NCBI RefSeq assembly: GCF_038595055.1 | Contig: NZ_CP152002.1 | Span: forward strand, 1,904,501 to 1,968,500 | From: Paenibacillus sp. FSL R7-0345 | Lineage (GTDB): Bacteria > Bacillota > Bacilli > Paenibacillales > Paenibacillaceae | Reading direction: 5' to 3' | Length of the DNA stretch: 64,000 bases | In this document: positions 16,477 to 39,757 of the stretch, piece by piece | How positions within the stretch are numbered: the first letter of the stretch is position 1 | How the letters are laid out: each line of letters opens with the position of its first letter | Notes under the pieces: model-generated | Databases searched by the model: none | What the model was told of the DNA's origin: nothing | Seen by the model: only the letters and a program-made list of their open reading frames with translations | Position numbers and translations under genes: made by a program

Positions 16477-16503
16477 GATTCCTCAAACACAGGTGGGTTT
16501 CTA

Positions 16504-17337: not shown

Positions 17338-17340
17338 CCA

Positions 17341-17427
17341 GGGCTTGTTACTGTTCAATCAGGCAAAACCCGGATGAGGCACGGCACGCGCGAGGGCGCG
17401 GAGACTGTGTGTTCGTTCGGGTTTTTT
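17341..17427 (+). promoter_or_regulatory. Second RAT and terminator, bglP leader
   Basis: GGCTTGTTACTGTTCAATCA, continuing GGCAAAACC (17342-17370), is a close copy of the RAT in front of licT. AAACCCG (17366-17372) pairs with CGGGTTT (about 17418-17424), and a T run follows. An inner GCGCGAGGGCGCG hairpin lies between. LicT should relieve termination here, so licT and the bglP operon are both under antitermination control. Confidence 0.9.
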
Positions 17428-17453
17428 AGTTGCCAAAAATAGGGGGAAATAAG

Positions 17454-19361: not shown

Positions 19362-19564
19362 GCTGGACGTTAAGCCATGCTGGGTGAAGCCTCAAGATTG
19401 GACAGTAGACGACATTAATCCGTACCTAATTCGGGAATTTCCCGGGCAATTAGATCAATTTTGTAGTACTAACTAGGGATGGTTTTTACAGGCGCAGCAA
19501 AGACGGAGCACTTTTTACAAAAAAATATAATATAGATTGAACTTGAAAACTTAAATTAAGGGGA

Positions 19565-19700
19565 AAGTGGCGGAGGAGAATTTTGGAACTGGAGGAACGG
19601 AAGTGTCCGCCTTTGTCTGCGGATTTCCACCGCGAACAGCGGTATCAAACCAAGAAATCTGCAGACAACAGCGGCCGGAAGTCCAAAATACTCTGGAGTC
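19565..19700 (+). repeat. Structured intergenic repeat, copy 1
   Basis: Lies in the 19362-19763 gap between bglP and bglA. Paired segments are visible. The outer stem is ATTTTGGA (19580-19587) with TCCAAAAT (19682-19689). A small hairpin CGGA-AGTG-TCCG spans 19598-19609. The long stem is TGTCTGCGGATTTC (19614-19627) with GAAATCTGCAGACA (19654-19667): 14 pairs with one G-U. Inside its loop is ACCGC-GAACA-GCGGT (19629-19643). The 3-prime part carries ACAGCGGCCGGAAGTCC. A second copy with the same stems but different stem bases is at 58958-59130. Strand is assigned from sequence orientation only. Confidence 0.8.
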
Positions 19701-19730
19701 ACGGCCATTCCTAAAATTTACACTTTATAG

Positions 19731-21227
<1,497 letters not shown>

Positions 21228-22185: not shown

Positions 22186-24180
22186 TCATTCCCCCAGCGC
22201 AATGAGCCGGTATTCATACGGCTCAAGCGTCAGAGGGCCGGCCGGCACAGCCCCGCCGGCCACAGCATCCTGCCCGCTCCGCGGCAGGATAACAGTGCCA
22301 CCGTGACCGTCCATGTTCACGACGGTCCACAGCTCGCCCGCCGCGCCGCGCCGCGGGCACACCACAGTGCCCGGTGTGACGTCGCTGCGCAGCGTCACAC
22401 CGGCCCGGCCGGCGTAATGCCCGATCAGCGCCTGCAGCAGCTGATCGCCGTCCCCGCCGGCCGGCAGCGAGCCGAGCATAACGATGGCCCCCTGGCCATA
22501 CGGCTGCTCGGTCGCAAAGGCCAGGCCCGGCGTCCGGCCCTCCGTGATCTCACCGATCACGGAAGCCCCGCCGGGCAGCGGCTCAAACACCGCGCTCCAT
22601 AAGGACAGCGGCGCGGACAGGCCAAAGGCCTGCCCGATGCTGCCGGTCCCCTCCATCGGGTAAATGTATTTGGTATGCACGCCTGCATACCGCTCAAGCT
22701 CACCCAGCGCGGCATCTGTATGCAGAGTGTGCTCCGCGGTACGGCCCCCGCTCAGCGGGCCGGCGATCCAGATGCCGCCGGCGTCAGCGAACGCCAGCGC
22801 TCTGTGCATAAACTCCGGCGACAGATAGTGCACAAAAGGTGTGAACAGCAGCTTATAGCCGCTGAGATCACCGCCTTCCGGCACCAGATCGCGGTGAAGG
22901 CCCATGTCGACAAACCTTTTATAGAAATCGCCGAGCAGGGAGCGGTAGTTCAGCTGCTTGTGCGGCTCGGTGGCGAGATAAGCCTTGGTCCGGTCCGAAT
23001 AGGTGATGGCAACCTCAGCCTGTACCGGCCGGGTAGCCAGCATATGCGGCTCGATCGCCAGCCTGGCCTCTGAAGCAGCCCGCACATTATCGTAGCCGAG
23101 CGCCGGGTCACCCCAGGCGCTGAGAATCGAGCTGTGCGTCTGCTCGCTGCCGGAACGCTGCTGCCGCCACAGCCAGTAGCAGAAAGCTCCGGCGCCAAGC
23201 GCGTAAGCGGATACGGCTTCAGCAATCAAGTACCCGTCCGGATGCGGCTGGCCGTAGCTTGTAAGCGATCCGGCATATGCCGGGCTGGTCTCCATTAGCC
23301 AGAAATCCTCTCCCGGTTTGATATTGCGCCACAGATCACAGTTCAGCAGATAAGCGTGCCGGTTGGCCTGGGAAGCGTACGTGTCATATGAAGCGAAATC
23401 CAGCTCCCGGAACAGCTGCTCATTATCCACATGAAAAGCGACACTGCTGTTGTGGGTGATTGGCGCATCCGAATAGCGGCGCAGGATAGCAGCCTGTTCA
23501 GCGGCAAATTCAGCGATCTTTTCCATCTGGAACAGCCGGTACATCGTAACAAGCGAGGAGTTATGCAGGAATGGAGTGGCTACCGGCTGAGGTACCTGCT
23601 CAAACGCCTGATAGGTATGGCTCCAGACGGCTGTTCCCCAGGCTTCATTCAGCCGGGCAATGCTGCCGTAGCGCTGCTCCAGCCATTTATGCCACAGTAA
23701 CCGGCAGGTTCCGCACATGCACTCTGCCACATGCGCCTTGAATTCATTATCGAGCTGCCAGGCAGCAAGACCGGGCAGCCGGCCCAGCTCTCTGGCCAGA
23801 TGCTCGGCAATGATAGCAGCCCGCTGCCGGAAATAAAGGTTATTCGTGCAGATATGCTGCCTGGACCCGTGGCTCATGACTGTGCCGTCAGCCCGGACAA
23901 ACAACCGCTCCGGATGCCCGTGCGTGAGCCAAACCGGCGGTGTTGCGGTCGGAGTACACATAATGGTGTCAATGCCATGATGATGCAGTTGCCGGATGTA
24001 CTCTGCGAACGGGCGGACATCTATGCTGTCTTCCTCCGGCTCCAGCTCCGACCAGATGAACTCGCCCATCCGGACAAGGTTGATCCCGGTTTCCTTCATC
24101 AGCTGAAGATCCTGCTGCCGCTCCGTCTCCCCCCACAGCTCGGGGTACCATGCGGCGCCGTAATACAGTTTATGCTTCAC
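22186..24180 (-). CDS. Beta-galactosidase, GH42
   Basis: A 664-residue cytoplasmic glycoside hydrolase family 42 enzyme. The TIM barrel opens with YYGAAWYPELW; the acid/base is Glu146 in WQLDNEF and the nucleophile Glu297 in WLMETSP. The zinc cluster of the family is visible as Cys111, Cys154, Cys156 and Cys159. The GTG at 24180 has GGAGGT upstream at about ten bases. It is divergent from an Lpl-type ABC transporter operon that continues with rhamnogalacturonan-related genes. By analogy with YesZ of B. subtilis it would trim galactose from pectic side chains (inference). The 3-prime third is very GC rich compared with its neighbours. Confidence 0.94.
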   Translation of the reverse strand: MKHKLYYGAAWYPELWGETERQQDLQLMKETGINLVRMGEFIWSELEPEEDSIDVRPFAEYIRQLHHHGIDTIMCTPTATPPVWLTHGHPERLFVRADGTVMSHGSRQHICTNNLYFRQRAAIIAEHLARELGRLPGLAAWQLDNEFKAHVAECMCGTCRLLWHKWLEQRYGSIARLNEAWGTAVWSHTYQAFEQVPQPVATPFLHNSSLVTMYRLFQMEKIAEFAAEQAAILRRYSDAPITHNSSVAFHVDNEQLFRELDFASYDTYASQANRHAYLLNCDLWRNIKPGEDFWLMETSPAYAGSLTSYGQPHPDGYLIAEAVSAYALGAGAFCYWLWRQQRSGSEQTHSSILSAWGDPALGYDNVRAASEARLAIEPHMLATRPVQAEVAITYSDRTKAYLATEPHKQLNYRSLLGDFYKRFVDMGLHRDLVPEGGDLSGYKLLFTPFVHYLSPEFMHRALAFADAGGIWIAGPLSGGRTAEHTLHTDAALGELERYAGVHTKYIYPMEGTGSIGQAFGLSAPLSLWSAVFEPLPGGASVIGEITEGRTPGLAFATEQPYGQGAIVMLGSLPAGGDGDQLLQALIGHYAGRAGVTLRSDVTPGTVVCPRRGAAGELWTVVNMDGHGGTVILPRSGQDAVAGGAVPAGPLTLEPYEYRLIALGE

Positions 24181-24423
24181 TTTGGGCTTACCTCCAGGAC
24201 ATTATAATGAGGGAATTAATCTTCCGGCATCATAGTTGCTGCCTGTCAGGCCGGCAATAGTAAAGTTTTGCCGGCTTTGCACTTTTTTGAAGCAGGCTGT
24301 TCTGCAGAAGGAATACATTACAATCCAAAAAGTCTGATTGCCGGAAAAAGGTAACAGCCACATAATGGGAACCGCAGCCCAAGAGATTAGACAAGGCTGC
24401 ATATCCTATCGGAGGTGAATGTA

Positions 24424-25392
24424 ATGAAACAAGGAGCGGCGATGGGAACAGCGGAGATCCATACTGGCAGCGCCTACCGCAGCAAGCGGGAGCTGATCTT
24501 CAAACGTCTGAAGCGTGATAAATGGCTCTACATCCTGCTGACCCCTGGACTCCTGTATTTTCTGCTGTTTAAATATGTGCCCATGTGGGGGATTCTGCTC
24601 GCGTTCAAGGATTTCCAGCCTTTCCTCGGCTTCATGAAAAGTGAATGGGTGGGCCTGGAGCATTTCCGCACATTTTTCCAGAATCCTGACTTCTTCATGC
24701 TGCTGCGCAACACACTTGTATTGTCGCTGCTTAATCTGGTGTTCTTTTTCCCGGCGCCGATTATACTGGCACTATTATTAAATGAGATCCGGCTGTCCTT
24801 CTACAAACGGACGATTCAGACGCTGATTTATGTGCCCCATTTTATATCAATGGTTATCGTCGCCAGTATATCATATGTCTTTCTGACCACACAGGGCGGA
24901 GCAGTCAACGAATTTTTGTATACGTATACAGGCAGCAAAATCGACTTTCTCGCCGATCCTGACTGGTTTAGGCCGCTGATCATTCTGCAGACAATCTGGA
25001 AGGAATGCGGCTGGGGGACAATCATCTTCCTCGCTGCGCTGGCCGGTGTGGATGTAGAGCAATATGAAGCTGCTGTTATGGATGGAGCAAGCCGCTGGCG
25101 GCAGATCTGGCATATTACACTGCCGGCAATCCGCAGTACCATTGTTATTCTGCTGATTTTGCGGATGGGCACCATTCTGGACAACGGGTTCGAACAGATC
25201 TATCTGATGATGAATGCGCTCAACCGTGAAGTTGCTGAAGTCTTCGATACATATGTGTATGCGCTGGGGATTACCCAGGGGGCATTCAGCTATAGTACGG
25301 CTGTCGGACTGTTCAAATCCATCATCGGGGTAGTACTGGTGCTCGGCACCAACTGGCTCGCCAAAAAATTCGGCGAATCGGGACTTTACTAA
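24424..25392 (+). CDS. ABC transporter permease, LplB type
   Basis: A 322-residue inner-membrane permease with six hydrophobic segments. The EAA loop that contacts the ATPase reads EQYEAAVMDGASRWRQIWHI, then TLPAIR. The N terminus KRDKWLYILLTPGLLYFLLF, then KYVPMWGILLAFKDF, is typical of the LplB/YtcP oligosaccharide permeases of paenibacilli. The ATG at 24424 follows GGAGGT (24411-24416); the upstream GTG at 24415 overlaps it. It pairs with the next permease and with the binding protein; no ATPase gene is in the operon, as usual for this class, where a shared MsmX-like ATPase serves. Confidence 0.93.
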   Translation: MKQGAAMGTAEIHTGSAYRSKRELIFKRLKRDKWLYILLTPGLLYFLLFKYVPMWGILLAFKDFQPFLGFMKSEWVGLEHFRTFFQNPDFFMLLRNTLVLSLLNLVFFFPAPIILALLLNEIRLSFYKRTIQTLIYVPHFISMVIVASISYVFLTTQGGAVNEFLYTYTGSKIDFLADPDWFRPLIILQTIWKECGWGTIIFLAALAGVDVEQYEAAVMDGASRWRQIWHITLPAIRSTIVILLILRMGTILDNGFEQIYLMMNALNREVAEVFDTYVYALGITQGAFSYSTAVGLFKSIIGVVLVLGTNWLAKKFGESGLY

Positions 25393-25408
25393 GAAGGAGG
25401 CAACGTGC

Positions 25409-26296
25409 GTGGTTAAGAAGCAATATCGGAGCACGGGTGAGGTTGCATTTGACATCTTCAATTATATTATCCTGGGAATTATCGGAATCGTCGCCATTCT
25501 GCCTTTTCTGTTCGTAGTCGCCGGTTCGTTCGCAACAGAGGCGGAAATTACAAAGCGTGCGGTTTTCCTGATTCCTACAACGATCTCGTTTGATGCCTAT
25601 AAATTTATCTTTTCAACGGATACGATTGTACGAAGCATCGGGGTCTCATTATATGTTACGGTCATCGGGACGATTGTGAATTTGTTCTTTACGGTAACAA
25701 TGGCGTATCCGATGGCTAAGCGTTATCTGATGGGCCGTAACTTGATTCTCAATCTGGTTATTTTCACTATGCTGTTCGGGGGAGGCATGATCCCCACTTA
25801 TCTGGTTATCCGTGACCTCCACCTGCTGGATACCTTAAATGCCCTGATTTTGCCGGGGGCAATCAGCGCGTTCAATCTGATTATCGTTAAAAACTTCTTC
25901 CAGGAGCTGCCGGTGGAAATGGAGGAGGCGGCACGGATCGACGGCTGCAGTGAGCTGGGCCTGCTATGGAAAATCGTGCTTCCGCTCTCAAAGCCGGTGC
26001 TGGCAACCTTTACGCTCTTTTATGCGGTAGGACACTGGAATAACTTCTTCTCGGCGCTGCTCTATATCAATGATCCGTCCAAATGGCCGCTGCAGGTCAT
26101 GCTGCGCCAGATCGTTATGCTGTCCCAGTCGGCGGCCGGCGATCTCAGCCTGATGGACCCGAATTTTGTCCAGCCGCCTGAGCAGTCGATCAAAATGGCC
26201 GTAATCGTGGTCGGCACGCTTCCGATTATGTGTGTCTACCCGTTTCTGCAAAAGCACTTCGCCAAAGGGGTGATGCTCGGTTCAGTCAAAGGTTAA
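25409..26296 (+). CDS. ABC transporter permease, LplC/YtcP type
   Basis: A 295-residue permease, partner of the preceding one. It has six membrane segments and the EAA loop ELPVEMEEAARIDGCSELGL, continuing WKIVLPLSKP. The C terminus HFAKGVMLGSVKG is characteristic of this sugar-permease branch. The start is GTG at 25409, with AAGGAGG eight bases upstream; another GTG at 25405 is out of frame. The substrate is probably a pectin-derived oligosaccharide, judged from the neighbours only. Confidence 0.93.
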   Translation: MVKKQYRSTGEVAFDIFNYIILGIIGIVAILPFLFVVAGSFATEAEITKRAVFLIPTTISFDAYKFIFSTDTIVRSIGVSLYVTVIGTIVNLFFTVTMAYPMAKRYLMGRNLILNLVIFTMLFGGGMIPTYLVIRDLHLLDTLNALILPGAISAFNLIIVKNFFQELPVEMEEAARIDGCSELGLLWKIVLPLSKPVLATFTLFYAVGHWNNFFSALLYINDPSKWPLQVMLRQIVMLSQSAAGDLSLMDPNFVQPPEQSIKMAVIVVGTLPIMCVYPFLQKHFAKGVMLGSVKG

Positions 26297-26329
26297 TCTG
26301 TTATGCTAACATATAAAGGGAGGCCAATC

Positions 26330-27967
26330 ATGAAAACGCTAAGCTCAACAGGAAAGAAATCCGTTAAATTCAAAAAGCGGTTGTTTACGCTACTGTCAAC
26401 TATTATGATTGTAAGTGTAATGTCCGGCTGCGGAAGCAACAATGGAGCGAATAATGCAGCCGGAACAAACGGGGCTGCGGGCAGTGAAGGAACAGCCAAG
26501 CCGGAGACTACAGCGGGAGCGGAAGCAGAGAAACCGCTGGATCTGACGCTGATGCTGCCGATTTTTAAAACCAACTATCCGAAGGATGACAGCCCCGTTG
26601 CGGCTAAGCTGGAGGAGCTGACTAATACCAACATCCATTTTGAATGGGTGCCGAATGCTTCTTATACCGATAAATTTAACATCACACTTGCCTCAGGCAA
26701 GCTGCCGGATATTATTTATGTAGGCGATACCAAGGCTTCCAGCTTCGTTAACGCAGTCAGATCCGGCGCGTTCTGGGAGGTTGGACCTTACCTGAAGGAC
26801 TATCCTAACCTGAGCCAGGCTGACCCGGTTATTCTGAACAACTCGGCCATTGACGGCAAGAACTACGGGATTTACAGAGGCCGGGCGCTGGGCCGCAACG
26901 GCGTAGCGTTCCGCAAAGACTGGCTGGAGAAGCTGGGACTTGAGAATCCGCAGACTGTGGATGAATTCTATAATATGCTGAAAGCGTTTAAAGAGCAGGA
27001 CCCGGACGGCAACGGCAAGGATGACACCTACGGTATGGTCATGGTGAAGTGGACCGGCGGCTGGGCCAGCGGCTTCGACACCATTAAACTGTGGTACGGA
27101 TCTCCGAACAGATGGGGTATCCAGGATGGCAAGCTCGTTCCTGAGCATGAATATCCGGAGTATCTGGAAGCGCTTAAATTTATGAAAAAGCTGTACGACG
27201 AGCAGCTGATCAACTCCGACTTCGCGGTTATGGACAGCTCCAAATGGACAGATCCGATCGTGAACAATCAGGCGGGCGTCATTGTCGATGTGGTGGATAC
27301 TGCAGCGCGCATTGACGACAAGATCCATGCCGCACTGCAGAAAGACGGCAAAGACGAGCCTGACCGTCACTACATGGATGTCATGGGCGGCGTTACAGGA
27401 GCGGACGGACAGCTGCACACCCTTCCGACTTCCGGCTTCTCCGGCATGCTGGCTATTCCGAAATCTTCAGTCAAAACCGAGGATGAGCTGAAGCGTATAC
27501 TGGCTTTCCTGGACCAGGTGAACGACGGGGATTTGCAGACGCTGCTGGGATACGGGCTTGAGGGTGTCCACTATAACCTGGTAGACGGTTATATCGAGCG
27601 TTCAGCGGATACCGTCCTGCTGGAATCGGAAGTAGAAGGCCTCAACCAGATGATTCCTTACATTCCTGATTCAAATGCTAAGGACGCGAAGCAAATCAAA
27701 CAAACTGCACTGCGTGATAAGCAGACGCTGGTACAGGAAGAGAATAAGGCGACTATTGTTGTGAACCCGGCTGAAGCACTGATCTCTACCGTTTATACGC
27801 AAAAAGGCTCCCAGCTTGATAATGTGATCAATGATGCGCGCATCAAGTTTATTGTCGGACAAATTGACGAGGCCGGCCTGAAAGCAGCCTTTGATGTATG
27901 GCGGAAGACAGGCGGAGACGATCTGGTAAAAGAAATGAACGAACTGTACGCAAAAACGGCTAAATAG
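26330..27967 (+). CDS. Extracellular solute-binding lipoprotein, LplA/YtcQ type
   Basis: A 545-residue binding protein of the oligosaccharide ABC transporter. The lipobox VMSGCGSN near residue 30 marks it as a membrane-anchored lipoprotein, followed by a low-complexity Gly/Ala/Asn linker. The mature part shows NIHFEWVPNASYTDKFNITL, ASGKLPDIIYVG and RKDWLEKLG typical of the family. The ATG at 26330 after GGGAGG is used; the ATG at 26303 precedes that site. It follows the two permeases and precedes the membrane AraC regulator. Confidence 0.94.
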   Translation: MKTLSSTGKKSVKFKKRLFTLLSTIMIVSVMSGCGSNNGANNAAGTNGAAGSEGTAKPETTAGAEAEKPLDLTLMLPIFKTNYPKDDSPVAAKLEELTNTNIHFEWVPNASYTDKFNITLASGKLPDIIYVGDTKASSFVNAVRSGAFWEVGPYLKDYPNLSQADPVILNNSAIDGKNYGIYRGRALGRNGVAFRKDWLEKLGLENPQTVDEFYNMLKAFKEQDPDGNGKDDTYGMVMVKWTGGWASGFDTIKLWYGSPNRWGIQDGKLVPEHEYPEYLEALKFMKKLYDEQLINSDFAVMDSSKWTDPIVNNQAGVIVDVVDTAARIDDKIHAALQKDGKDEPDRHYMDVMGGVTGADGQLHTLPTSGFSGMLAIPKSSVKTEDELKRILAFLDQVNDGDLQTLLGYGLEGVHYNLVDGYIERSADTVLLESEVEGLNQMIPYIPDSNAKDAKQIKQTALRDKQTLVQEENKATIVVNPAEALISTVYTQKGSQLDNVINDARIKFIVGQIDEAGLKAAFDVWRKTGGDDLVKEMNELYAKTAK

Positions 27968-28070
27968 CGTCCGGCCCCGCTCCATGCACCGGCCGGAGTA
28001 GCCTCATTACCGCCGCAAGGCTGCAATGCTAAACTATGAATTCGGCTGGTGAATACACATGGAGAATGGA

Positions 28071-30428
28071 ATGACAGAAAAGCGGAAGAGCTTCATACGG
28101 GGATGGAGAGGGCGCAAGGGGCGGTATTACCGCCATAATCTGATTATTGTCCTGATTGTCTCGTCCATTCCCGGCCTGATCATAGGATTGCTAGTTTATT
28201 GGATGGCAGGCGGCAGCCTGGAGGAGGAGCTGCTCGAGATGCATAACCGGCAGATCGAGCAGCGTGCCGCCAATATTGATGACCAGCTGTCCAATCTGGA
28301 GCTGATGCTGGCTCACTGGGCTTTTGACCCGAAATTTGATTACAGTCTGAAGAATATGGATTTCACCAAAAATCACGAGCGTGCCTGGGACATCACCAAG
28401 ACGCTTTTGGTCATGCAAGGCTCCAATTCCATGGCACGGCAGGTGGAGCTGTTTCTGGCGGGCGATCAGCCGGTGCTGTTCGGCACGGAGTATGGTACTG
28501 TAACTTCCTCCGGAGCTGCAGCTTATGAGCAGCTGATGAAGACGGAGCAGAGCACCTACTGGACAGAGACGGCTTTTGAACCGGCTAAGCCGCAGCAGAA
28601 GGAGCTGACCCTTGTGCATCATATTCCCGGCGGCAGCTTAGAGCCGTTCGGGGTATTGCTGCTGCGGATGGATACGCAGAAGGTTTCCGACATGCTGCGG
28701 ACCATGACCCCGTATAACAGCGGGGAAGTGTATATGCTGCAGAAATCGGGCGGCTTGTTCATCTCCGGGAACAGTACTGACGATGAGGCCAAGCCTTTTG
28801 TTCACTCGCTGCAGTCGGCGATTGAAGCAAGAGGCGGCCGTGGCAGCACCTCCTTCCTGTATGACTGGGACGGGACTACCTATGCGGTGACCTACGGTGA
28901 TTTTTCCCGGATTGCCAGTGAATGGACTTATGTATCCGCTTCACCGATTTCGAGTATAACCTCTCCGGTGGTGGAGCTTTCGAGAACCATCATTACAGTC
29001 AGCCTGAGCGCGCTGCTGCTTGCAGCTGTTCTGTCCTGGATTGCATCGAAAAGAATCTACTCCCCCTTCCGCCGCCTGCTGCAGACGCTGCTCCCTGAGC
29101 ATGACGTCTCTGATGGCCGGGAGGATGAGGTAACGCTGATTGAGCGGCATTGGCAGAATCTGCACGGGCAGCAGAATGCCCTGCAATATACGCTTTCGGA
29201 GCAGCTGCCGCATGTGCAGCGCAGCTTCCTCCACCAGCTGTTTCAGGGTTATTTGTATGCTTTTTCCGAACATGAGCTGCAGAGCCGGATGAAACAGTAC
29301 AAATGGAATGTAGATGATTGTGTCTTTGTGGTGCTGTATATCCAGCTTATAGGCATATCCAGTCTGGAGGGTAAATTCCGCAGCGGGGATGAGAGCCTGG
29401 TGTCTTTTGCGGCGGTGAACATTATCGGAGAGCTGGCCGCTGAGCATTTTGAGCACGCAGAAACGGTTAATCTGCACAATCTTACAGCCGGTATTCTGCT
29501 GATCGGGCCGGGATGCGGGCCAGAGACAGCCAGAGTACAGGCTTTCGGCGAAGAGCTGGCCGCCACCATCAACCGGATGCTTAAGCTGCAGGCTACCGTA
29601 GCCTACAGTGCGCCGATGGACAGCATTTCGGCCATCCCGCGTTCTTTTGAAGCAGCCAAGCAGGCGGCCAGTCACCGCAGATATGGAGGCGGTAACCAGG
29701 TGGTCAGCCTGGAGCAACTGGAGCGGGAAGGAGAGGGCGCACATATGCCGCAGTATTCGTTCGCTCTGGAACGCGGACTGATTCAGGCGTTGCGCACCGG
29801 CGAGGCGGAGGAGGCAGACCGTCTGCTGGAGGAATTCCTCACTACGCTATCTGCTGAAGGTGCCAAGGTCATTGATGTACAGCAGGGAATGCTGCATCTG
29901 CTCGGTGCGGTACAGCATGCAGTGCTTGAGGCGGGGATTGCGCCGAACCAGCTGTTTAAAGGCAAGAATCTGTATGCCGGCCTGTCACAGATTCATGAGC
30001 CGGGTATGATTCTGCCCTGGTTCCGCGATCATGTTGTTTCGCCTTTTCTGAAGGAGCTGTCCGAGCGTTCAGACGCCGGAATCCGGCGGACGATTGATCA
30101 GGCCATGCTATACATTCAAGAGCATTATATGGACAATATCTCACTCGACAGCTGTGCGGATTATACGGGTACCAGCCCTTTCCTGCTCAGTAAGTCTTTT
30201 AAACGGGTGACCGGGCAGAACTTCATTGATTATTTAACGGAGCTGCGGATCGAAAAAGCCAAAGAGCTGCTGCGTGACACGGATCTGAAAATGAACGATG
30301 TTGCGCAGCAGGTCGGCTATCAGCAGAGCTATTTTAACCGGATATTCAAAAAACAGGAGGACATCACACCGACACGCTACCGTGAGCTGAGCCGGCATGA
30401 AGGGGAGAAGGATACCGGGAGCCGGTGA
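28071..30428 (+). CDS. Membrane-bound AraC-family regulator (YesS-like)
   Basis: A protein of about 785 residues. One membrane helix sits near residue 25-45 (LIIVLIVSSIPGLIIGLLVY), a large extracellular Cache-like sensor follows, then a second helix (IITVSLSALLLAAVLSWIAS) near residue 305-325. A long cytoplasmic part ends in an AraC double helix-turn-helix (residues about 685-780; MDNISLDSCADYTGTSPFLL, MNDVAQQVGYQQSYFNRIFK). The start could be ATG 28059, but GGAG at 28061-28064 favours 28071. B. subtilis YesS has the same plan and activates rhamnogalacturonan genes. Placed between transporter and catabolic genes, it is the likely activator of this locus. Confidence 0.9.
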   Translation: MTEKRKSFIRGWRGRKGRYYRHNLIIVLIVSSIPGLIIGLLVYWMAGGSLEEELLEMHNRQIEQRAANIDDQLSNLELMLAHWAFDPKFDYSLKNMDFTKNHERAWDITKTLLVMQGSNSMARQVELFLAGDQPVLFGTEYGTVTSSGAAAYEQLMKTEQSTYWTETAFEPAKPQQKELTLVHHIPGGSLEPFGVLLLRMDTQKVSDMLRTMTPYNSGEVYMLQKSGGLFISGNSTDDEAKPFVHSLQSAIEARGGRGSTSFLYDWDGTTYAVTYGDFSRIASEWTYVSASPISSITSPVVELSRTIITVSLSALLLAAVLSWIASKRIYSPFRRLLQTLLPEHDVSDGREDEVTLIERHWQNLHGQQNALQYTLSEQLPHVQRSFLHQLFQGYLYAFSEHELQSRMKQYKWNVDDCVFVVLYIQLIGISSLEGKFRSGDESLVSFAAVNIIGELAAEHFEHAETVNLHNLTAGILLIGPGCGPETARVQAFGEELAATINRMLKLQATVAYSAPMDSISAIPRSFEAAKQAASHRRYGGGNQVVSLEQLEREGEGAHMPQYSFALERGLIQALRTGEAEEADRLLEEFLTTLSAEGAKVIDVQQGMLHLLGAVQHAVLEAGIAPNQLFKGKNLYAGLSQIHEPGMILPWFRDHVVSPFLKELSERSDAGIRRTIDQAMLYIQEHYMDNISLDSCADYTGTSPFLLSKSFKRVTGQNFIDYLTELRIEKAKELLRDTDLKMNDVAQQVGYQQSYFNRIFKKQEDITPTRYRELSRHEGEKDTGSR

Positions 30429-30519
30429 AGCTGTATGCTGGTGCTATGACGTGCTCTAAGGCGGCTTGTGCCAGCCGGAATGGACTGCCTGTGTGATGTC
30501 TCAAAAGGAGATGACAGCC

Positions 30520-33306
30520 TTGTCCTCAGCCTTGCCGATTCATCTACATTGGCTGACTAAACCCGCAGCTGCTGCGGGGGTTACGTGGGGAGTCCCCTGG
30601 ACCAAAGGAGAGCTGAACCGTGAGACGCTCTCAGCTCTATATCTTGGCGGACCGGACGGCCATTCCCGTCTGCCGCTGCAAAGCCGTCCGGCCGCTTATT
30701 GGCCGGACGGAACTGTTAAGTGGTCTTTTCATTCTGCAGTCTGCCCGGAGGGCGGTGCGGAAGGATATACACTGGAACGTTGTGCAGAGCCGGAAACCGT
30801 CCAGTATACAGCAAGGGTGTCCGTCCGTGAGACGGAGGAAGCTTACCTTGTGGATACTGGTGCCATTGTATGTACTGTGGGCATACGCGGTTCTGGACCT
30901 TTTACGCAGATTTTGCGCCGGACGCCGTCATTAGCCGGCAGAACGGATAGCGATTGTAGATATTCCGGAGATTTGAAGAACATGAATGCAGGAGCCGGGT
31001 ACCAGGACACAGCAATGGGCTCGGAGCCACAGGCGTTCGGTTTAGAAGAGCATGCGAACCGATTAGAAGAGCATGCGAACACTATAGGTCAGCTGGTATG
31101 CAGCGGAAGCGAGCTGGTCTGTCTTCGCGAGCAGCGGGACACGCTGAGCGGTGAGCTGACACTGCGGCAGGAACGGTTCACCGGCGTGACCAGACAGGCT
31201 GCGCTGGAAGAGAACGGGCCGCTGCGTGCCGTGATTCGCCTTGAAGGTAGGCACCGCAGCAGGAACGGGGCCGGGGAATGGTTACCCTACACGCTGCGCC
31301 TGTATTTCTATGCCGGACTTGAGTCGATCCGGATGGTGCATACCTTTCATTACGACGGTAACCCGCAGGAGGATTTTATCAAAGGGCTGGGTATCGAATT
31401 CAAGGTGCCGCTAAGCGGGCCGCTTTACAACCGTCATATCCGGTTTGCGGGCAGTGAGGGCGTCTTCAGCGAATCACCGAAGACCCTTCATACCCGCAGA
31501 ACCAAGGGCAAATATGCGGAAATGTTCGCTGAACAGCTTGAAGGCCGCCTGCTGGAGTTTGAACCGGAAGAGGACGTTTATTTCACCGGACTGCTCCGGG
31601 ATTCTGCAGTCTGGGATAGCTTCCGGCTGGTTCAGGACTCCTCCGAGCATTATGCCGTCCATAAGCGGACCGGGCCGGACTGTGTCTGGATCAAGGGAGC
31701 AGAGGGACGGCGTGCCGGTGGGCTAGGCTATATCGGCTCAGAGCGCGGCGGTTTGGCCGCCGGGGTGAAGGACTTCTGGCGGAAGCATCCTTCAGGCCTT
31801 GAGCTTAGAGGTGCTTCAGGTGACGAGGCGGCGCTGACAGTATGGTTCTGGTCGCCAGAGGTACCGGCTATGGACCTGCGCCATTACGATACGAAGACCC
31901 ATGTAGAGTCCTCATATGAAGGTGCCGAGGAGCTGCGGGCCACTCCGTACGGCATCGCTAACACCCGTGAGCTGACCTTATGGTGCACCTCGGGCACACC
32001 GGGCTCTGCAGAGCTGTTGCGGATGCAGCAGGAGGCGGATAATACTCCGCTTCTCGTCTGTGAACCGGAGTATTATCACCACAGCAGGGCATTCGGGTTA
32101 TGGAGCCTGCCTGACAGAAGCACACCGGCCAAGGCTTATCTGGAGGAACGGCTTGACGGCATTATCTCCTTTTACCAGGCGGAGGTGGAGCAGCGCAAAT
32201 GGTATGGCCTATGGGATTACGGTGACTTCATGCACAGCTATGATCCCGTGCGGCATGTCTGGAACTATGACCTCGGCGGCTGTGCGTGGCAGAATGCGGA
32301 GCTGGTGCCGAACATGTGGCTGTGGGTGAGCTTTTTGCGGAGCGGGCGCGCGGATATATTCCAGATGGCAGAGGCGATGACCCGGCATACCAGCGAGGTG
32401 GATGTGTATCATTTCGGGGAGTATGCGGGTCTTGGCTCGCGGCATAACGTGGTGCACTGGGGCTGCGGCTGCAAGGAAGCGCGGATCGCCATGGCCGGAT
32501 TGCACCGCTATTACTATTATCTGACCGGCGATGAGCGGATCGGCGACATCATGGACAGTGTGAAGGATGCGGACTATACGACCGTGAATCTTGACCCGAT
32601 GCGGGCTTATTTTCCCAAGGATGAATTTCCGACACATGCCAGGGTGGGCCCGGACTGGGCGGCGTTCAGCTCCAACTGGATGACCCGGTGGGAACGATAC
32701 GAAGAGACAGCTTACCGTGACAAAATATTGACCGGCATTGACTGCATCAAAGCAGCCAATCTGCGGCTGATTTCCGGTCCAACCTACGGCTATGATCCCA
32801 AAACAGGCATCCTCAGCCCGATGGGCGATGACAACTGGGGACGGCATCTGGCAATCTGCATGGGCGGGCCGCAGGTGTGGTTTGAGCTCGCCATGATGCT
32901 GGAGGACCCGGTGTGGGAGGATATGCTCGCGGAATTCGGCGTCTTTTACAACCTGCCGCAGGAAGAAAAGGATGCTTATGCCGGAGGAGCCATTACAGGC
33001 AAGCTGCGGTTTGAGCACCCTGTGCTGAGTGTCGCTATTGCTGCATATGGAGCCTGGTATAAGAATGACCGGGCAACGGCAGACCGCTGCTGGAGCATCC
33101 TGCTGGAGAACCCGTTCGGAGCCGTCAATCTGCAGGAAGAGCAGATCCCGGTTACTTACATGGACGAGCTGAATGAGATTGACTGGATGAATACGAACGA
33201 AGCTTCACAATGGTCGCTTAATACGATCATTGCGCTGGAGCTGATTTCTGAAGCACTTCCTGAAGCGATTCCTGAACGGGATTCGGTAAAGGGGGCAAAA
33301 GAATGA
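30520..33306 (+). CDS. PcRGLX/YetA-like protein (putative exo-rhamnogalacturonan lyase family)
   Basis: About 928 residues, no signal peptide. The N-terminal part (IHLHWLTKPAAAAGVTWGVP, WPDGTVKWSFHSA) resembles the RIFT-barrel domain of PcRGLX (PL26) and YetA. A beta-sandwich middle follows, then a C-terminal alpha/alpha toroid (WDYGDFMHSYDPVRHVWNYD, GRHNVVHWGCG-like SRHNVVHWGCG). PcRGLX removes terminal disaccharides from rhamnogalacturonan I; YetA in B. subtilis lies beside lplABCD, and the same transporter type is here. Lyase activity is inferred from family and context. AAAGGAG at 30504-30510 fits TTG 30520 best; ATGs at 30496 and 30511 are alternatives. The next gene overlaps its stop by 4 bp. 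Confidence 0.8.
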   Translation: MSSALPIHLHWLTKPAAAAGVTWGVPWTKGELNRETLSALYLGGPDGHSRLPLQSRPAAYWPDGTVKWSFHSAVCPEGGAEGYTLERCAEPETVQYTARVSVRETEEAYLVDTGAIVCTVGIRGSGPFTQILRRTPSLAGRTDSDCRYSGDLKNMNAGAGYQDTAMGSEPQAFGLEEHANRLEEHANTIGQLVCSGSELVCLREQRDTLSGELTLRQERFTGVTRQAALEENGPLRAVIRLEGRHRSRNGAGEWLPYTLRLYFYAGLESIRMVHTFHYDGNPQEDFIKGLGIEFKVPLSGPLYNRHIRFAGSEGVFSESPKTLHTRRTKGKYAEMFAEQLEGRLLEFEPEEDVYFTGLLRDSAVWDSFRLVQDSSEHYAVHKRTGPDCVWIKGAEGRRAGGLGYIGSERGGLAAGVKDFWRKHPSGLELRGASGDEAALTVWFWSPEVPAMDLRHYDTKTHVESSYEGAEELRATPYGIANTRELTLWCTSGTPGSAELLRMQQEADNTPLLVCEPEYYHHSRAFGLWSLPDRSTPAKAYLEERLDGIISFYQAEVEQRKWYGLWDYGDFMHSYDPVRHVWNYDLGGCAWQNAELVPNMWLWVSFLRSGRADIFQMAEAMTRHTSEVDVYHFGEYAGLGSRHNVVHWGCGCKEARIAMAGLHRYYYYLTGDERIGDIMDSVKDADYTTVNLDPMRAYFPKDEFPTHARVGPDWAAFSSNWMTRWERYEETAYRDKILTGIDCIKAANLRLISGPTYGYDPKTGILSPMGDDNWGRHLAICMGGPQVWFELAMMLEDPVWEDMLAEFGVFYNLPQEEKDAYAGGAITGKLRFEHPVLSVAIAAYGAWYKNDRATADRCWSILLENPFGAVNLQEEQIPVTYMDELNEIDWMNTNEASQWSLNTIIALELISEALPEAIPERDSVKGAKE

Positions 33307-33995
33307 CAGCTCAGCAGACAGCGCTGATCCCGGAGCAGTGGCGGGAGATATACCGCAATACGCTGGGGGGGCCGGAGCAGGTGGCCGGCTTTCGGATGGA
33401 AGGTGACGGCGCAGTAACCTTTCCGGTGGGCAGGTTGCGGCTGGAGAGTACCCGGAATGCCTCGGAGGGGCAGAAGGCGAATGTTGTATTCTGGTGCCCG
33501 GAGGTTTTTCCGGGGGACCTGGCAGTGTCGTGGACATTCCGGCCGCTGCGCGAGCCGGGACTGGCCATTCTGTTCTTCGCTGCTGCCGGTGCCGGGGGGA
33601 AAGACCTGTTCGACCCGTCGCTGCCGGTGCGGACCGGGGAGTATGATCAGTATCATCACGGGGAGATGAACGCTTTTCATATATCCTATTTCCGGCGGAT
33701 GTGGGCGGAGGAGCGTTCCTTCCACACCTGTAACCTGCGCAAAAGCTACGGCTTTCACCTGGTCTCGCAGGGAGCTGATCCGCTGCCCGGTATTGCCGAT
33801 ATGACTGCTGCCTATCAGATGCTGGTCGTGAAGCGGGGGCCGTCTGTAACCTTTGCCATCAACGGACTGCCGCTGCTGCAGTGGACGGATGACGGCTCAT
33901 CCTATGGTCCGCTGCTGGCCGGCGGCCGGATCGGCTTCCGGCAGATGGCTCCGCTGATCGCAGAGTACAGCGATCTGACTGTTTATGCGCCCTGA
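33303..33995 (+). CDS. DUF1961 family protein (YesU-like)
   Basis: A 230-residue protein with the DUF1961 signature stretch (WTFRPLREPGLAILFFAAAG, then LFDPSLPVRTGEYDQYHHG, then MNAFHISYFRRM). It probably adopts a jelly-roll lectin or glycosidase-like fold. B. subtilis YesU sits in the rhamnogalacturonan (yes) cluster but its reaction is not established to my knowledge. No signal peptide. The ATGA overlap with the preceding gene indicates translational coupling, so the two products may act on the same substrate. Confidence 0.82.
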   Translation: MTAQQTALIPEQWREIYRNTLGGPEQVAGFRMEGDGAVTFPVGRLRLESTRNASEGQKANVVFWCPEVFPGDLAVSWTFRPLREPGLAILFFAAAGAGGKDLFDPSLPVRTGEYDQYHHGEMNAFHISYFRRMWAEERSFHTCNLRKSYGFHLVSQGADPLPGIADMTAAYQMLVVKRGPSVTFAINGLPLLQWTDDGSSYGPLLAGGRIGFRQMAPLIAEYSDLTVYAP

Positions 33996-34019
33996 GAGGC
34001 TCAGAAGCTGCTGAGTATG

Positions 34020-34138
34020 GGCGCACAGTAAGTAATGAAAGGCATAAATGCCCTTGATTTCGGCCGGAGCGGCCAAATGGGCAAAATGAGAGGCAAAAGT
34101 GCCTTTGAATTCGGCGGAAGCGGCCGAGTGGATACTAT
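34020..34138. repeat. Tandem GC-rich intergenic repeat
   Basis: Between the DUF1961 and deacetylase genes are two related units: GGCATAAATGCCCTTGATTT followed by CGGCCGGAGCGGCCAAATGG, then GGCAAAAGTGCCTTTGAATT followed by CGGCGGAAGCGGCCGAGTGG. Each begins with a small GGC...GCC hairpin and ends in a CGGCCG-centred inverted repeat. Confidence 0.65.
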
Positions 34139-34183
34139 TTTACATGAGATACCATTATCCAGATTCAAGGAGGCGTAACAGCA

Positions 34184-34984
34184 ATGCCAGTAGTATATTA
34201 CTGCTATCCGCAAGGCCGGCATAAGGCGCTGACAATGAGCTATGATGACGGAAGACGGGCGGATGAGCGGCTGGTTGGCCTGTTTAACAAATATGGGATT
34301 AAAGGAACCTTCCACTTGAACTCCGGCCTGCTGGGTGATGGCGACCGGATTACAGCGGAGGAGGTGCCGCAGCTGTATAAGGGCCATGAAGTCAGCGCCC
34401 ATACGCGGCGGCATCCGACGATGGCCCGCTGTCCGCAGGAGTATATCGTCGAGGAGATCATGGAGGACCGCAAAGCGCTGGAAGCGCTGCTCCGCCAGCC
34501 GGTCCGCGGGATGTCTTACCCGAACGGATCGTATACGGAAGAGATCAAAGAGCTGCTGCCGCATCTTGGCATTGAATATGCCCGGACCGTGCAGAGCACC
34601 GGCAGCTTCGGCCTGCCGGAGGACTGGCTGGAATGGCCGGCGACCTGCCATCACAACCGGAATCTGCTTGAGCACGGGGAGAATTTTATCGCCCTGCACA
34701 AACGGCAGTACCTGTATCTGATGTATGTATGGGGCCACAGTTATGAATTCGATAACGATAATAACTGGGAGCTGATGGAGAAGTTCTGCGCCATGGCCGG
34801 CGGGCGGGATGACATCTGGTATGCCACTAACCTGGAGTTTGTTCATTATATGAAGGCTTGCCGGAATCTGATTTTTGCGGCGAGCCGGGATTTTGTATTC
34901 AATCCGAACGCTGCGTCAGTGTGGCTGGAGGTTGACGGCCAAGTAATTGAAGTGCCGGGCGGGCAGACCGTGGACTTGGTTTAA
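34184..34984 (+). CDS. Polysaccharide deacetylase family protein (CE4/NodB)
   Basis: A 266-residue NodB-homology hydrolase without signal peptide. Motif 1 reads TMSYDDGRR with Asp21 and Asp22; motif 2 is HEVSAHTRRHP with the metal ligands His73 and His77; motif 3 is RGMSYPNGSY. A His also occurs in VWGHSYEF. These features match metal-dependent N- or O-deacetylases. As it lies among cytoplasmic pectin-utilisation genes, it may remove acetyl groups from imported rhamnogalacturonan oligosaccharides (inference). AAGGAGG lies at 34168-34174. The 3-prime end is 78 bp from the next gene. Confidence 0.88.
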   Translation: MPVVYYCYPQGRHKALTMSYDDGRRADERLVGLFNKYGIKGTFHLNSGLLGDGDRITAEEVPQLYKGHEVSAHTRRHPTMARCPQEYIVEEIMEDRKALEALLRQPVRGMSYPNGSYTEEIKELLPHLGIEYARTVQSTGSFGLPEDWLEWPATCHHNRNLLEHGENFIALHKRQYLYLMYVWGHSYEFDNDNNWELMEKFCAMAGGRDDIWYATNLEFVHYMKACRNLIFAASRDFVFNPNAASVWLEVDGQVIEVPGGQTVDLV

Positions 34985-35062
34985 TAACGGAAGCAGGCTG
35001 GGAGAGCGCGCTTGCACCAGTTGCAGGCGGGGCAAACGGATGGGAGACAAGGAGGCGCTACT

Positions 35063-36343
35063 GTGGATAACATTAATCAAACCAGTAATCAATCGCTGCA
35101 CCGGCTGGCCGGAATCGATATTTCGGCTGCCGGTCCAAGATGCAAAATGCTGATCGGAGACCTGGACGGGGACGGCAGGGCTGAGCTGCTGCTGGTTCAG
35201 CCGGATAACCGCCAGGATGTGCGGTATATTCCGCATCAGGTGCAGTGCCTGACCGCCTTTGATCTGGACGGCCGTCTGTTGTGGCAGACCGGGAAGCCGG
35301 ATGAAGGGGCCGGAAGCCAGGGCTCGGATTACCCGGCCCAGGTTTATGATATTGACGGTGACGGTGCGCTTGAGGTGTTGTGTGTCATGGATGACAAGCT
35401 GCAAATTCTGGAGGGTGCAACCGGAAAAGTAAAGGCAGTACACGAGCTTCCGTCTGCAGAGGCCCATGACTGCATTATTATTGCCAACCTTAGCGGCAAG
35501 GACCGTCCTTCTGACATTATTCTTAAAGACCGGTATCACCGCCTGTGGGCACTTGACAGCAACCTGCAGCTGCTCTGGACTCATGAGGGCAATGTAGGAC
35601 ATTATCCGTGGGTGTATGATCTTGACGGTGATGGACGCGATGAGGTTATGGCCGGATATGATTTGTTGGATGCAGACGGTAAACGGCTGTGGAGCTGCCG
35701 TGATCTGGAGGATCATGCGGACTGCCTCTGGGTCGGAGATGTGAACGGCGACGGGCTTCCCGAGCTGGTGGTCGGGGGAAGTGTCACGGTAATGTACAAC
35801 CGGGACGGAAAAGAGCTGTGGCGGTACGAGGGCTCCATTGAATCCCAGCATCTGGCGCTTGGACGTTTCTGTCCTGAGCTGCCTGGGCTGCAGATTGCCG
35901 GACTCGACCGTATGGTCCGTGAAGATGACGGCAAGGGTCTCAAGGGAAAAGACGCCATGTTCCTGCTCGATCAGCACGGCAAGGAGCTCTGGAAAGAGGA
36001 GCGCACAACAGACGGCTGGCTGACAATCGTCGATGCGGTCAGCAGCTTCTGGAAGAACGCGCCTGATTACATTCTGGCTTACCGGCGCGGTGAAGGTGTG
36101 CTGCCTGCGCTCTATGACGGCAAAATGAATAGGGTTGCACAGTTTGCCGAGCAGGGCTACGCCGTGCACGGGGATCTGCTGGGCAGCGGCACCGAGCAGG
36201 TCATCATCTATACGGATGAGCTGGCGGCAGTCTATGCCGGAGAACAGCTCACGCTTCAGCCGGTACATCCGGGCCGGGCGTTGCCGCAGCCCAAACGGCT
36301 GTACAGCTCCACTCTGTATCCCGGCGGGGAAGTAGCGCCGTAA
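35063..36343 (+). CDS. FG-GAP/VCBS-type beta-propeller protein, cytoplasmic
   Basis: A 426-residue protein built of repeats with calcium-loop motifs: DLDGDGRAELLL, DIDGDGALEVLC, DLDGDGRDEVMA and DVNGDGLPELVV, spaced as blades of a beta-propeller. There is no signal peptide, although such calcium-binding propellers are usually secreted. Rhamnogalacturonan lyases of family PL11 are also calcium-rich propellers, so a lyase-related role is possible, but I see none of the PL11 N-terminal domain. Start: GTG at 35063 with AAGGAGG at 35049-35055; the longer TTG start at 35012 lacks a good site. It is the last gene of the locus. Confidence 0.75.
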   Translation: MDNINQTSNQSLHRLAGIDISAAGPRCKMLIGDLDGDGRAELLLVQPDNRQDVRYIPHQVQCLTAFDLDGRLLWQTGKPDEGAGSQGSDYPAQVYDIDGDGALEVLCVMDDKLQILEGATGKVKAVHELPSAEAHDCIIIANLSGKDRPSDIILKDRYHRLWALDSNLQLLWTHEGNVGHYPWVYDLDGDGRDEVMAGYDLLDADGKRLWSCRDLEDHADCLWVGDVNGDGLPELVVGGSVTVMYNRDGKELWRYEGSIESQHLALGRFCPELPGLQIAGLDRMVREDDGKGLKGKDAMFLLDQHGKELWKEERTTDGWLTIVDAVSSFWKNAPDYILAYRRGEGVLPALYDGKMNRVAQFAEQGYAVHGDLLGSGTEQVIIYTDELAAVYAGEQLTLQPVHPGRALPQPKRLYSSTLYPGGEVAP

Positions 36344-36366
36344 GGTCAAAATATTCCCGGATCAAT

Positions 36367-36398
36367 AACCCGTGAGGCATAAGCCCTGCGGGTTTTTT
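36367..36398 (+). terminator. Terminator of the polysaccharide locus
   Basis: AACCCG (36367-36372) pairs with CGGGTT (36389-36394); an inner AGGC/GCCT stem extends it. Six Ts follow. Confidence 0.8.
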
Positions 36399-38140: not shown

Positions 38141-39757
38141 ATGCAATTTACAGTTTCTTTTAAAAAATCGCTATGGTCAGGAACACTGGCAGTTCTACTA
38201 ATGGCGGTGATTGCCGGCTGCTCCGGGCAGAACAATACACCTGCTGCAAGTGAGACCGCCCAGCCAAGCGCAAGCCAGGCGGCGGATGCCGGGAACAGCA
38301 CCAGCGAGCCCGCGGCGGGAGGGACTTTCGTCTATGGACGCCCTGCTGCAGTGACCTCGTTTGATTTGCATAACCAGATTACCTCGAACAATGCGTTTGC
38401 GATTGATAAAGTGTTTGAATCCCTGGTTGCTTTTAACAGTGAAGGGGAGATTGTGGACTGGCTGGCTGCCTCCCATACCATCAGTGAAGACGGCTTGACC
38501 TATACCTTTGTGCTGCGTGACGGCCTGAAGTTCTCTAACGGCAACGCTGTTACAGCCAAGGATGCTGTATTCTCGCTGGAGCGTCACCTGAAGGTCGGCG
38601 GTCCGCTGGCGATTGCAGCCAAGGTGGATAGCGTAACTGCACAGGATGACAAAACGCTGGTAATTAAACTCCAGGAGCCGTACACACCATTCATCTCCGA
38701 GCTGTCCAACTTCTCGAACGGCATTATCCCGGCTGATTTCGGCGGGGTTACCGAGGAAGAATTCTTTAAAAAGCCAATCGGCACCGGCCCGTTCGCCATT
38801 GAAGCCTGGGACCCTGCGGGCGATGTGAGGTTCGTCAAAAACACGAACTACTGGCAGGAAGGCAAGCCGGCGATCGATGAGCTGGTCTATAAGCTGATCG
38901 AAGACGACAGCCAGGCTATTAACCAGCTGAAGGCCGGAGAGGTTAACGCGATCGAAGCGCTTGCCCTGCAGAATGCTGAAGAATTGAAAAACGGCGCTGA
39001 TACTGCTGTAGTCACCAACGGCAGCTGGGTAACTGAGCAGCTGTTCTTCAATACACTGGATGAGCATTTCAAGGATGTGCATGTCCGCCGCGCGCTGGCA
39101 CTGGCACTTGACCGTGAAGGCCTGACCAAGGCGCTGACCTTCGGTTATGCCAAGACGGCAAACTCCCTGCTGCCGACAACCATTCCTTACAATGCGAATG
39201 ACACGATAAAAGCGCTGAACTATGATGTAGAAGCTGCCAAAGCTGAGCTGGCTAAATCCGCATTCCCTAACGGCTTCAGCACCAAGCTGCTGGTGGCCTC
39301 CGGCAACAGCACCAGAGCCCAGGAAGCGCAGATTATTCAGGCGGCAGGCCAGGCGATCGGCATCAAAATTGAGATTGAATCCATTGAGCTGGCTTCCTTC
39401 CGTGAACGGTTCTTCGCCTATGATTTCTCTGCTATGCTGAACAGCGGCCAGGCAGATTCTCCGGAAGCAAACTCGATTCTGGCTTTCCAGACGGATCCGG
39501 AAGGCTTCAGCAAATCGTACTGGACGCATTATACCAATGACGAAGTAACCAAGCTGCTGTATGAAGGACAAAAAACGGCAGACGGCGACGCCCGCGCAGA
39601 GATTTACACCAAGCTCCTGCAGACGCTGGCTGATGAAGTACCTTACATTCCTCTCTACTATCCTGACATCCTGATCGGTGCCCGCTCTTCGGTAGAGGGA
39701 CTTACTGTATTGCCTAACGGCAGCGTCCGCTTTGAAGATGTGCGGATGGGTCAATGA
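38141..39757 (+). CDS. ABC transporter substrate-binding lipoprotein (SBP_bac_5)
   Basis: A 538-residue peptide/nickel-type binding protein. The signal peptide ends in the lipobox VIAGCSGQN. The family pattern is clear: YTFVLRDGLKFSNGNAVTAK, then DAVFSLERHL, and later KKPIGTGPFAIEAWDPAGDV and VRRALALALDREGL. It would capture a small peptide or similar solute for the two permeases and two ATPases encoded downstream. GAAGGGGAG precedes the ATG at 38141. It is the first gene of a seven-gene operon that also encodes an aminotransferase and an amidohydrolase. Confidence 0.95.
   Translation: MQFTVSFKKSLWSGTLAVLLMAVIAGCSGQNNTPAASETAQPSASQAADAGNSTSEPAAGGTFVYGRPAAVTSFDLHNQITSNNAFAIDKVFESLVAFNSEGEIVDWLAASHTISEDGLTYTFVLRDGLKFSNGNAVTAKDAVFSLERHLKVGGPLAIAAKVDSVTAQDDKTLVIKLQEPYTPFISELSNFSNGIIPADFGGVTEEEFFKKPIGTGPFAIEAWDPAGDVRFVKNTNYWQEGKPAIDELVYKLIEDDSQAINQLKAGEVNAIEALALQNAEELKNGADTAVVTNGSWVTEQLFFNTLDEHFKDVHVRRALALALDREGLTKALTFGYAKTANSLLPTTIPYNANDTIKALNYDVEAAKAELAKSAFPNGFSTKLLVASGNSTRAQEAQIIQAAGQAIGIKIEIESIELASFRERFFAYDFSAMLNSGQADSPEANSILAFQTDPEGFSKSYWTHYTNDEVTKLLYEGQKTADGDARAEIYTKLLQTLADEVPYIPLYYPDILIGARSSVEGLTVLPNGSVRFEDVRMGQ

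Follow-up and report, generated by a model that had tools for sequence, protein, structure and literature searches.

The 64-kb window analysed here (C1:1904501-1968500, the whole stretch of DNA presented) comes from the genome of Paenibacillus sp. FSL R7-0345, a single contig of 6.98 Mb, and holds an operon that runs from a gene for an LplB-type permease to one for a beta-propeller protein, with a GH42 beta-galactosidase gene divergent from it. We consider it very probable that this operon encodes a line for the import and cytoplasmic processing of rhamnogalacturonan I (RG-I) oligosaccharides and is a variant of the Bacillus subtilis yes/yet/lpl locus. This reading draws on the protein families encoded, on conserved gene order and co-occurrence, on the PL11 and GH105 partners of these genes in relatives and on the likeness of the LplA-type binding protein to AlgQ1 and AlgQ2; furthermore, the genome itself holds PL11 genes and, next to a second PL26 gene, GH105, GH28 and LplBCA. 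RG-I forms one of the main domains of pectin, and the intracellular end of its breakdown in Gram-positive bacteria is only partly known. The points that appear new, judging from sequence, are the kinship of the propeller with PL11 lyases, invariant residues in the proposed sugar pocket of YesU and a conserved three-block candidate operator. A literature search, in which subscription journals were thinly covered, found neither this Paenibacillus operon nor a cytoplasmic PL11-like propeller described and, for DUF1961 outside YesU, nothing but one passing mention.

A frame check and Pfam analysis showed all nine genes to be open frames of the families named in an initial annotation of the window, which had placed GH42, an Lpl transporter, a YesS-like activator, a YetA/PcRGLX-like protein, DUF1961, CE4 and a propeller together (Table 1). 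The eight genes from lplB to the propeller have dN/dS (non-synonymous to synonymous rate) values of 0.02–0.14 against a sister species, indicating purifying selection, and they read as one transcription unit, since the PL26 and YesU frames share 4 bases and the propeller gene is followed by a stem resembling a terminator, with GH42 transcribed divergently. The protein at 30466-33306 is assigned to the PL26 type because it contains PcRGLX domains 1, 2 and 3 (4.7e-22, 1.1e-119 and 1e-166, respectively; Pfam) and matches the PcRGLX structure 5xq3 at 2e-137. Its longest frame is 946 residues; the length of 928 given initially fits a TTG start at 30520, and the gene start is likely to lie near 30511-30520. 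The best solved relative of GH42 was 6lvw (3.9e-72), and those closest to LplA were the alginate-oligosaccharide binders AlgQ1 (3.4e-23) and AlgQ2 (1.1e-20).

Export was assessed as the Kyte-Doolittle mean over 19 residues in windows starting within the first 60, which is a hydropathy test and not SignalP. By this measure GH42, PL26, YesU, CE4 and the propeller have no N-terminal hydrophobic stretch (largest mean 0.82), while LplA (1.71, then a Cys) and the YesS-like protein (2.87) do have one. This agrees with the earlier proposal that the enzymes lack signal peptides and that oligosaccharides imported through an RG-type locus are processed in the cytoplasm, which our analysis supports.

Across 197 sampled Paenibacillaceae genomes, the propeller was detected in 66, PL26 in 43 and YesU in 39. 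The propeller was also present in 40 of the 43 PL26 genomes (exceptions: G014, G033 and G095), and YesU never occurred without PL26 (39/39). Likewise, 37 of 45 PL26 genes had a propeller within 6 kb and 36 of 40 YesU genes had PL26 within the same distance, with PL26, YesU, CE4 and propeller all within 12 kb in 26 of the 66 propeller places, a count that took in 45 CE4 places (at least 58% identity) from a larger list. The Fisher p values calculated for these co-occurrences leave the kinship of the genomes out of account and are not to be read as probabilities. Gene order is kept across several genera, with Paenibacillus species as the nearest named loci when the propeller is matched, and the enzyme set is therefore not the unusual one it was first taken to be. 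Beyond the family, the propeller was found in 19 of 398 genomes of the phylum, the window's own included, and in 52 contig loci, many of them from Lachnospiraceae, where the neighbours checked included PL11, PL22 and GH2 enzymes and also unrelated genes, for example a tRNA synthetase. More distant relatives have this transporter and propeller beside a true PL11 or a fused GH105; the neighbour counts are lower bounds, as mechanical gene calls sometimes chose antisense frames, and of the loci with the respective cluster Pfam confirmed PL11 in 2 of 10 and GH105 in 2 of 8. The linkage of PL26, YesU and propeller gives two conserved proteins of undefined role a substrate to test.

The initial annotation had also remarked on the absence of a GH105 gene and called for a search of the genome. 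With Pfam we detected no GH88/105 match in the window and 16 in the genome, all elsewhere, of which 15 are over the family cut-off; one adjoins the second PL26 gene, in a locus that also has GH28 and LplBCA. In sister species a fused protein, with ~350–450 unassigned residues followed by GH88/105, stands directly behind the propeller, and as this slot is occupied by a MATE gene in the window, the gap appears to reflect a loss or replacement specific to this lineage. We compared 39 of the 66 propeller places with 43 rows of the fused-GH105 list and 20 of the places with a CE4 paralogue, and in 16 of those 39 no more than 1.5 kb separated the propeller from the fused GH105; Pfam confirmed its GH88/105 part in L009 and L053. 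Among nine same-genus genomes with a propeller, five have the fused GH105 and G000, G064, G102 and G118 do not, and this form was not found in the window's own genome. The idea of a broken pathway was dropped in view of the 15 genes over the cut-off, as was replacement of GH105 by the propeller, given that the two adjoin in those 16 places; a gap at one operon step, here GH105, need not mean a gap in the organism. The genome also has three PL11 genes outside the window, two with a hydrophobic N-terminus and one without.

The relationship of the propeller (443 residues; model pLDDT, predicted local distance difference test, 87.3) to PL11 had not been noted in the initial annotation. RGL11_C matched at 66.4 bits against a cut-off of 27, in two partial stretches, and a PL11 profile covered most of the protein (E 5.9e-23; 4.7e-20 with master-sequence columns), with the PL11 lyases YesW (1.6e-14) and YesX (2.4e-14) as the closest solved folds in Foldseek. 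VIA-align gave a Z of 25.5 and a root mean square deviation (rmsd) of 3.5 over 379 aligned residues for YesX, its top match being the biofilm protein Bap1 (Z 27.3, rmsd 3.2, 354 aligned). Pfam found no match in the propeller to the N-terminal RGI_lyase domain PF18370, which the PL11 neighbours in relatives have. In the PL11 enzyme Bo3128, the published description gives His376, His412, Asp414 and Glu435 as Ca ligands, Arg467 and Lys549 as carboxyl-binding and Tyr610 as stacking (PMC8787155). We placed these residues by motif and spacing on the PL11 of L019 (H450, H501, D503, E524, R555, K645 and Y705), where they are conserved in 7–8 of the 8 PL11 rows aligned. Using hhalign, H501 and D503 aligned with propeller H235 and D237; the first metal His fell on H197 in the HMMER alignment, in a column that hhalign leaves open, and the metal-ligand Glu and stacking Tyr had no firm partner. 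H197, H235 and D237 are invariant in 31/31 propellers (31 of 50 frames were aligned), and belong to a set of 86 invariant positions whose polar members also include H152, K172, R174, E277, R300, R303, R331 and R359. The substrate-binding Arg and Lys, however, are not kept, with R555 aligned to H280 (His in 26 sequences, Asn in 5) and K645 to E380 (hhalign). With these two changed the propeller is PL11-related but is not to be filed as PL11, and the reading as a plain PL11 was rejected on the same changes together with the missing N-terminal domain; its sequence suggests a cytoplasmic PL11 relative that probably keeps three of the four metal-ligand positions.

A longer propeller subfamily of ~660–700 residues, with an extra N-terminal region, was observed in other Bacillota (L113:7863-9851, G469, G345 and others). 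The GHF, HVD and KDRY motifs are kept in the one member examined, and in L113 the longer propeller adjoins LplA-, B- and C-like genes.

The DUF1961 protein, left unassigned initially, is by sequence and model the counterpart of B. subtilis YesU (PDB 1oq1), which it matches at 1.3e-75 and with 52% identity in the Foldseek alignment, its model superposing on 1oq1 with Z 31.6 and rmsd 1.5 over 215 aligned residues. In PMC6120924, Lewis x was docked in B. subtilis YesU, in a pocket of Leu74, Tyr101, Pro102, His105, Arg118, Tyr121, Glu124, Arg133, Phe138 and Met202, adhesion was proposed, and that protein is likewise without an export signal. On the 1oq1 alignment, in which the chain seems to be numbered 3 higher than the paper's residues, judged by residue type, Tyr101, His105, Arg118, Glu124, Arg133 and Phe138 correspond to Tyr114, His118, Arg131, Glu137, Arg146 and Phe151 of the window protein. 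Five of these six are invariant and one nearly so in 32 sequences, taken from the homologues found and mostly from RG-type loci, while Pro102 and Tyr121 are not kept. The hydropathy test gave no sign of the export signal by which a secreted fucolectin adhesin would be recognised. Given this absence, and since PL26 accompanies YesU in every sampled genome that has it, a ligand derived from RG-I is more likely than an adhesin role, and it would fit invariant pocket residues in cytoplasmic homologues better than the published idea does. L-rhamnose and L-fucose are both 6-deoxy-L-hexoses, and this likeness could be the reason for the fucose binding of B. subtilis YesU on the published array. The fold neighbours of YesU include lectins, GH16 and the alginate lyase Aly36B, and since lectins, WD40 propellers and GH16 enzymes have similar scores in the VIA-align lists for both the propeller and YesU, fold alone gives no function for either.

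For CE4, Asp21, Asp22, His73, His77 and His185 are invariant in 21/21 homologues (21 of those found were aligned), and the NodB domain, DD motif and HTxxH are all present; with these five residues kept, the NodB machinery looks intact. In L100 (G000:C1:1393502-1394288) a second CE4 copy, ~65% identical, lies in pieces in different frames with a stop in the match, flanked by genes for a SASA-type acetylesterase and a GH88/105 protein, and this locus is probably a decayed relative of the operon. Genus g7 (e.g. G038:C1:5165275-5168268) has a CE4 paralogue (~51–55% identical) away from the propeller; in 19 of 20 places compared the fused GH105 is no more than 1.5 kb away, so that the two form a recurrent CE4-GH105 pair.

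From these families the following route can be proposed. RG-I would first be broken down to unsaturated oligosaccharides by two secreted PL11 lyases whose genes lie elsewhere; LplA would capture these fragments and LplBC would import them with an ATPase encoded elsewhere. In the cytoplasm, GH42 would remove galactose stubs and CE4 an acetyl group, PL26 would split the rhamnose-galacturonic acid (Rha-GalA) backbone into unsaturated disaccharides, and a GH105 encoded elsewhere would open these to rhamnose and ketouronate. RG-I oligosaccharides are also the most likely ligands or substrates of YesU and the propeller, beside PL26: YesU would engage them through its conserved pocket, the propeller as a metal-dependent enzyme from a PL11-like ancestor. 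The YesS-like activator probably senses either the imported sugar or the protein that binds it, and would act on the divergent promoter through the three-block operator. The nearest support from experiment comes from B. subtilis, where, according to PMC7596534, the binding protein YesO binds an RG-I-derived unsaturated GalA-Rha-galactose trisaccharide, which is expected to be degraded by an unidentified intracellular galactosidase and YesR, and the GH42 of the window would be a fitting candidate for the galactosidase step. More tentatively, the propeller and YesU may represent two unrecognised families of cytoplasmic enzymes, the former a stripped-down PL11 descendant whose changed catalytic set (Arg to His280, Lys to Glu380) acts on short imported fragments, and the latter a jelly-roll enzyme, not a lectin, whose six-residue pocket handles the L-rhamnose end produced or required by PL26.

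The propeller might instead be a sugar-binding or scaffold protein and not an enzyme, as many FG-GAP propellers serve in binding, Bap1 comes first in VIA-align and the PL11 Arg and Lys are replaced; we hold this possible but doubtful, given three metal-ligand positions that seem to be retained and 86 invariant ones, many of them polar. It is rather improbable that the operon serves a different glycan containing rhamnose and uronate, for example an exopolysaccharide of bacteria or an arabinogalactan tipped with Rha-glucuronic acid. LplA does resemble alginate-oligosaccharide binders and lone propeller genes exist outside RG-I operons, but PL26, the GH105 and GH28 genes at the second PL26 locus, and the PL11 partners in relatives point to a Rha-GalA backbone. 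The assignment to RG-I has to be set against the 26 of 66 propeller genomes without PL26, the lone propellers outside any RG-I operon at L111:9497-10771 and L112:3670-4941, and the lack of GH105 in the operon itself. Finally, that YesU is a fucose-binding adhesin standing in the operon by chance, as proposed for B. subtilis, has glycan array and surface plasmon resonance data behind it in PMC6120924, as well as a lectin-like fold; however, it is made very unlikely by the missing export signal, by the constant presence and usual proximity of PL26, and by a docked pocket with six of ten residues invariant or nearly so in homologues mostly from RG-type loci. The linkage of PL26, YesU and propeller casts doubt on the published role.

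Alignment of the GH42-lplB intergenic region from five genomes showed three blocks and a CATAAT to be kept while the remainder drifts. Block B recurs at 0–1 mismatch in L019, L021, L026 and L110, blocks B or C were found again upstream of lplB in L017, L019, L026 and L110, and L108 has a further block C (1 mismatch) 72 bases upstream of the PL26 frame. Within the window's own genome, blocks A and C each have a single exact site, in the GH42-lplB region. Block C overlaps the -35-like TTGCCG of a candidate promoter whose CATAAT is invariant in 5/5 aligned regions, and the YesS-like protein would be the obvious reader of these blocks. The promoter consensus scan gave a total match count not above shuffles, as did the scan for terminators; the candidate terminator sequence does show an AACCCG...CGGGTTTTTT stem. 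A wider YesS regulon, sought by operator search, was discarded, as the reversed-pattern control gave about as many 3-mismatch matches in the genome, and so was a CcpA catabolite-responsive element near the operon, the sole window match (60675) being at chance level.

Table 1. Genes and candidate regulatory elements of the operon (window coordinates)
Feature	Position	Strand	Evidence
GH42 beta-galactosidase, no signal peptide, divergent from operon	22186..24180	-	PF02449 1.2e-112, PF08532 2.8e-36
Candidate operator block A, GCAATAGTAAWGTTTTGC	24254..24271	+	exact in window and L105-L107; 1 mismatch in L108
Candidate operator block B, TTTGCACTTTTTTGA	24276..24290	+	0-1 mismatch in 5/5 aligned intergenic regions
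Candidate operator block C, AAAGTCTRATTGCCGGAAAA	24329..24348	+	exact in 5/5 regions
Candidate lpl operon promoter, TTGCCG - 17 - CATAAT	24338..24366	+	consensus scan
LplB-type permease	24415..25392	+	PF00528 3.5e-17
LplC-type permease	25409..26296	+	PF00528 1.4e-15
LplA-type solute-binding lipoprotein	26303..27967	+	PF01547 (SBP_bac_1) 1.5e-20
YesS-like membrane regulator: Cache, GGDEF-like, AraC helix-turn-helix	28059..30428	+	PF12833 8.1e-21, PF17853 1.9e-6, dCache 1.4e-6 (below family cut-off)
PL26-type (PcRGLX/YetA-like) lyase	30466..33306	+	PF19501, PF21345, PF21346
YesU (DUF1961), ConA-like jelly roll	33303..33995	+	PF09224 6.4e-93
CE4 (NodB-fold) deacetylase, predicted cytoplasmic	34184..34984	+	PF01522 (Polysacc_deac_1) 7.5e-20
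Beta-propeller related to PL11, predicted cytoplasmic	35012..36343	+	RGL11_C 2.8e-18
Candidate operon terminator	36358..36395	+	stem-loops with T-run at 36358-36372 (-) and 36381-36395 (+)

The YesU-CE4 spacer (window 33996-34183; L106:12375-13215) varies in length, up to ~840 bases, and holds short imperfect repeats, with a sequence that differs between species; no tandem repeat was found in the window's spacer, and L106 has an unrelated one. Directly upstream of the operon, at 16450-21227, is a beta-glucoside-type operon (antiterminator, phosphotransferase system transporter and GH1), and downstream, at 38141-45425, are an Opp-type peptide transporter, a class V aminotransferase and an amidohydrolase. 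Further along, the product of 50659-51678 has 339 residues and begins with a TIR domain like those of CAP12/Pycsar effectors (Pfam 3.3e-24; PADLOC: TIR effector 2e-41, PycTIR 2.3e-31); its gene is flanked by those for an SLH-anchored GH10 xylanase and alanyl-tRNA synthetase.

We take the RG-I cluster of B. subtilis to comprise YesOPQ, YesR, YesS, YesU, YesWX, YesZ, YetA and LplABC. The window shares with it an Lpl-type binding protein with two permeases, a YesS-like membrane-sensor AraC regulator, a PL26/YetA-like lyase, YesU and GH42, but is without GH105 and a secreted PL11 and adds the predicted cytoplasmic CE4 and the PL11-like propeller. Between the two YesU proteins there is no substantial difference, and the gene's surroundings are at odds with the published role in adhesion. 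All three domains of PcRGLX, the fungal PL26 exo-rhamnogalacturonan lyase of Penicillium chrysogenum, are present in the window's PL26 protein, which differs in being bacterial and predicted cytoplasmic. The propeller has PL11 YesW and YesX as its closest solved folds, matches the PL11 profile and probably keeps three metal-ligand positions, H197 by the HMMER alignment only, but with its 443 residues is predicted to be cytoplasmic, lacks PF18370 and has His280 and Glu380 in place of Arg and Lys.

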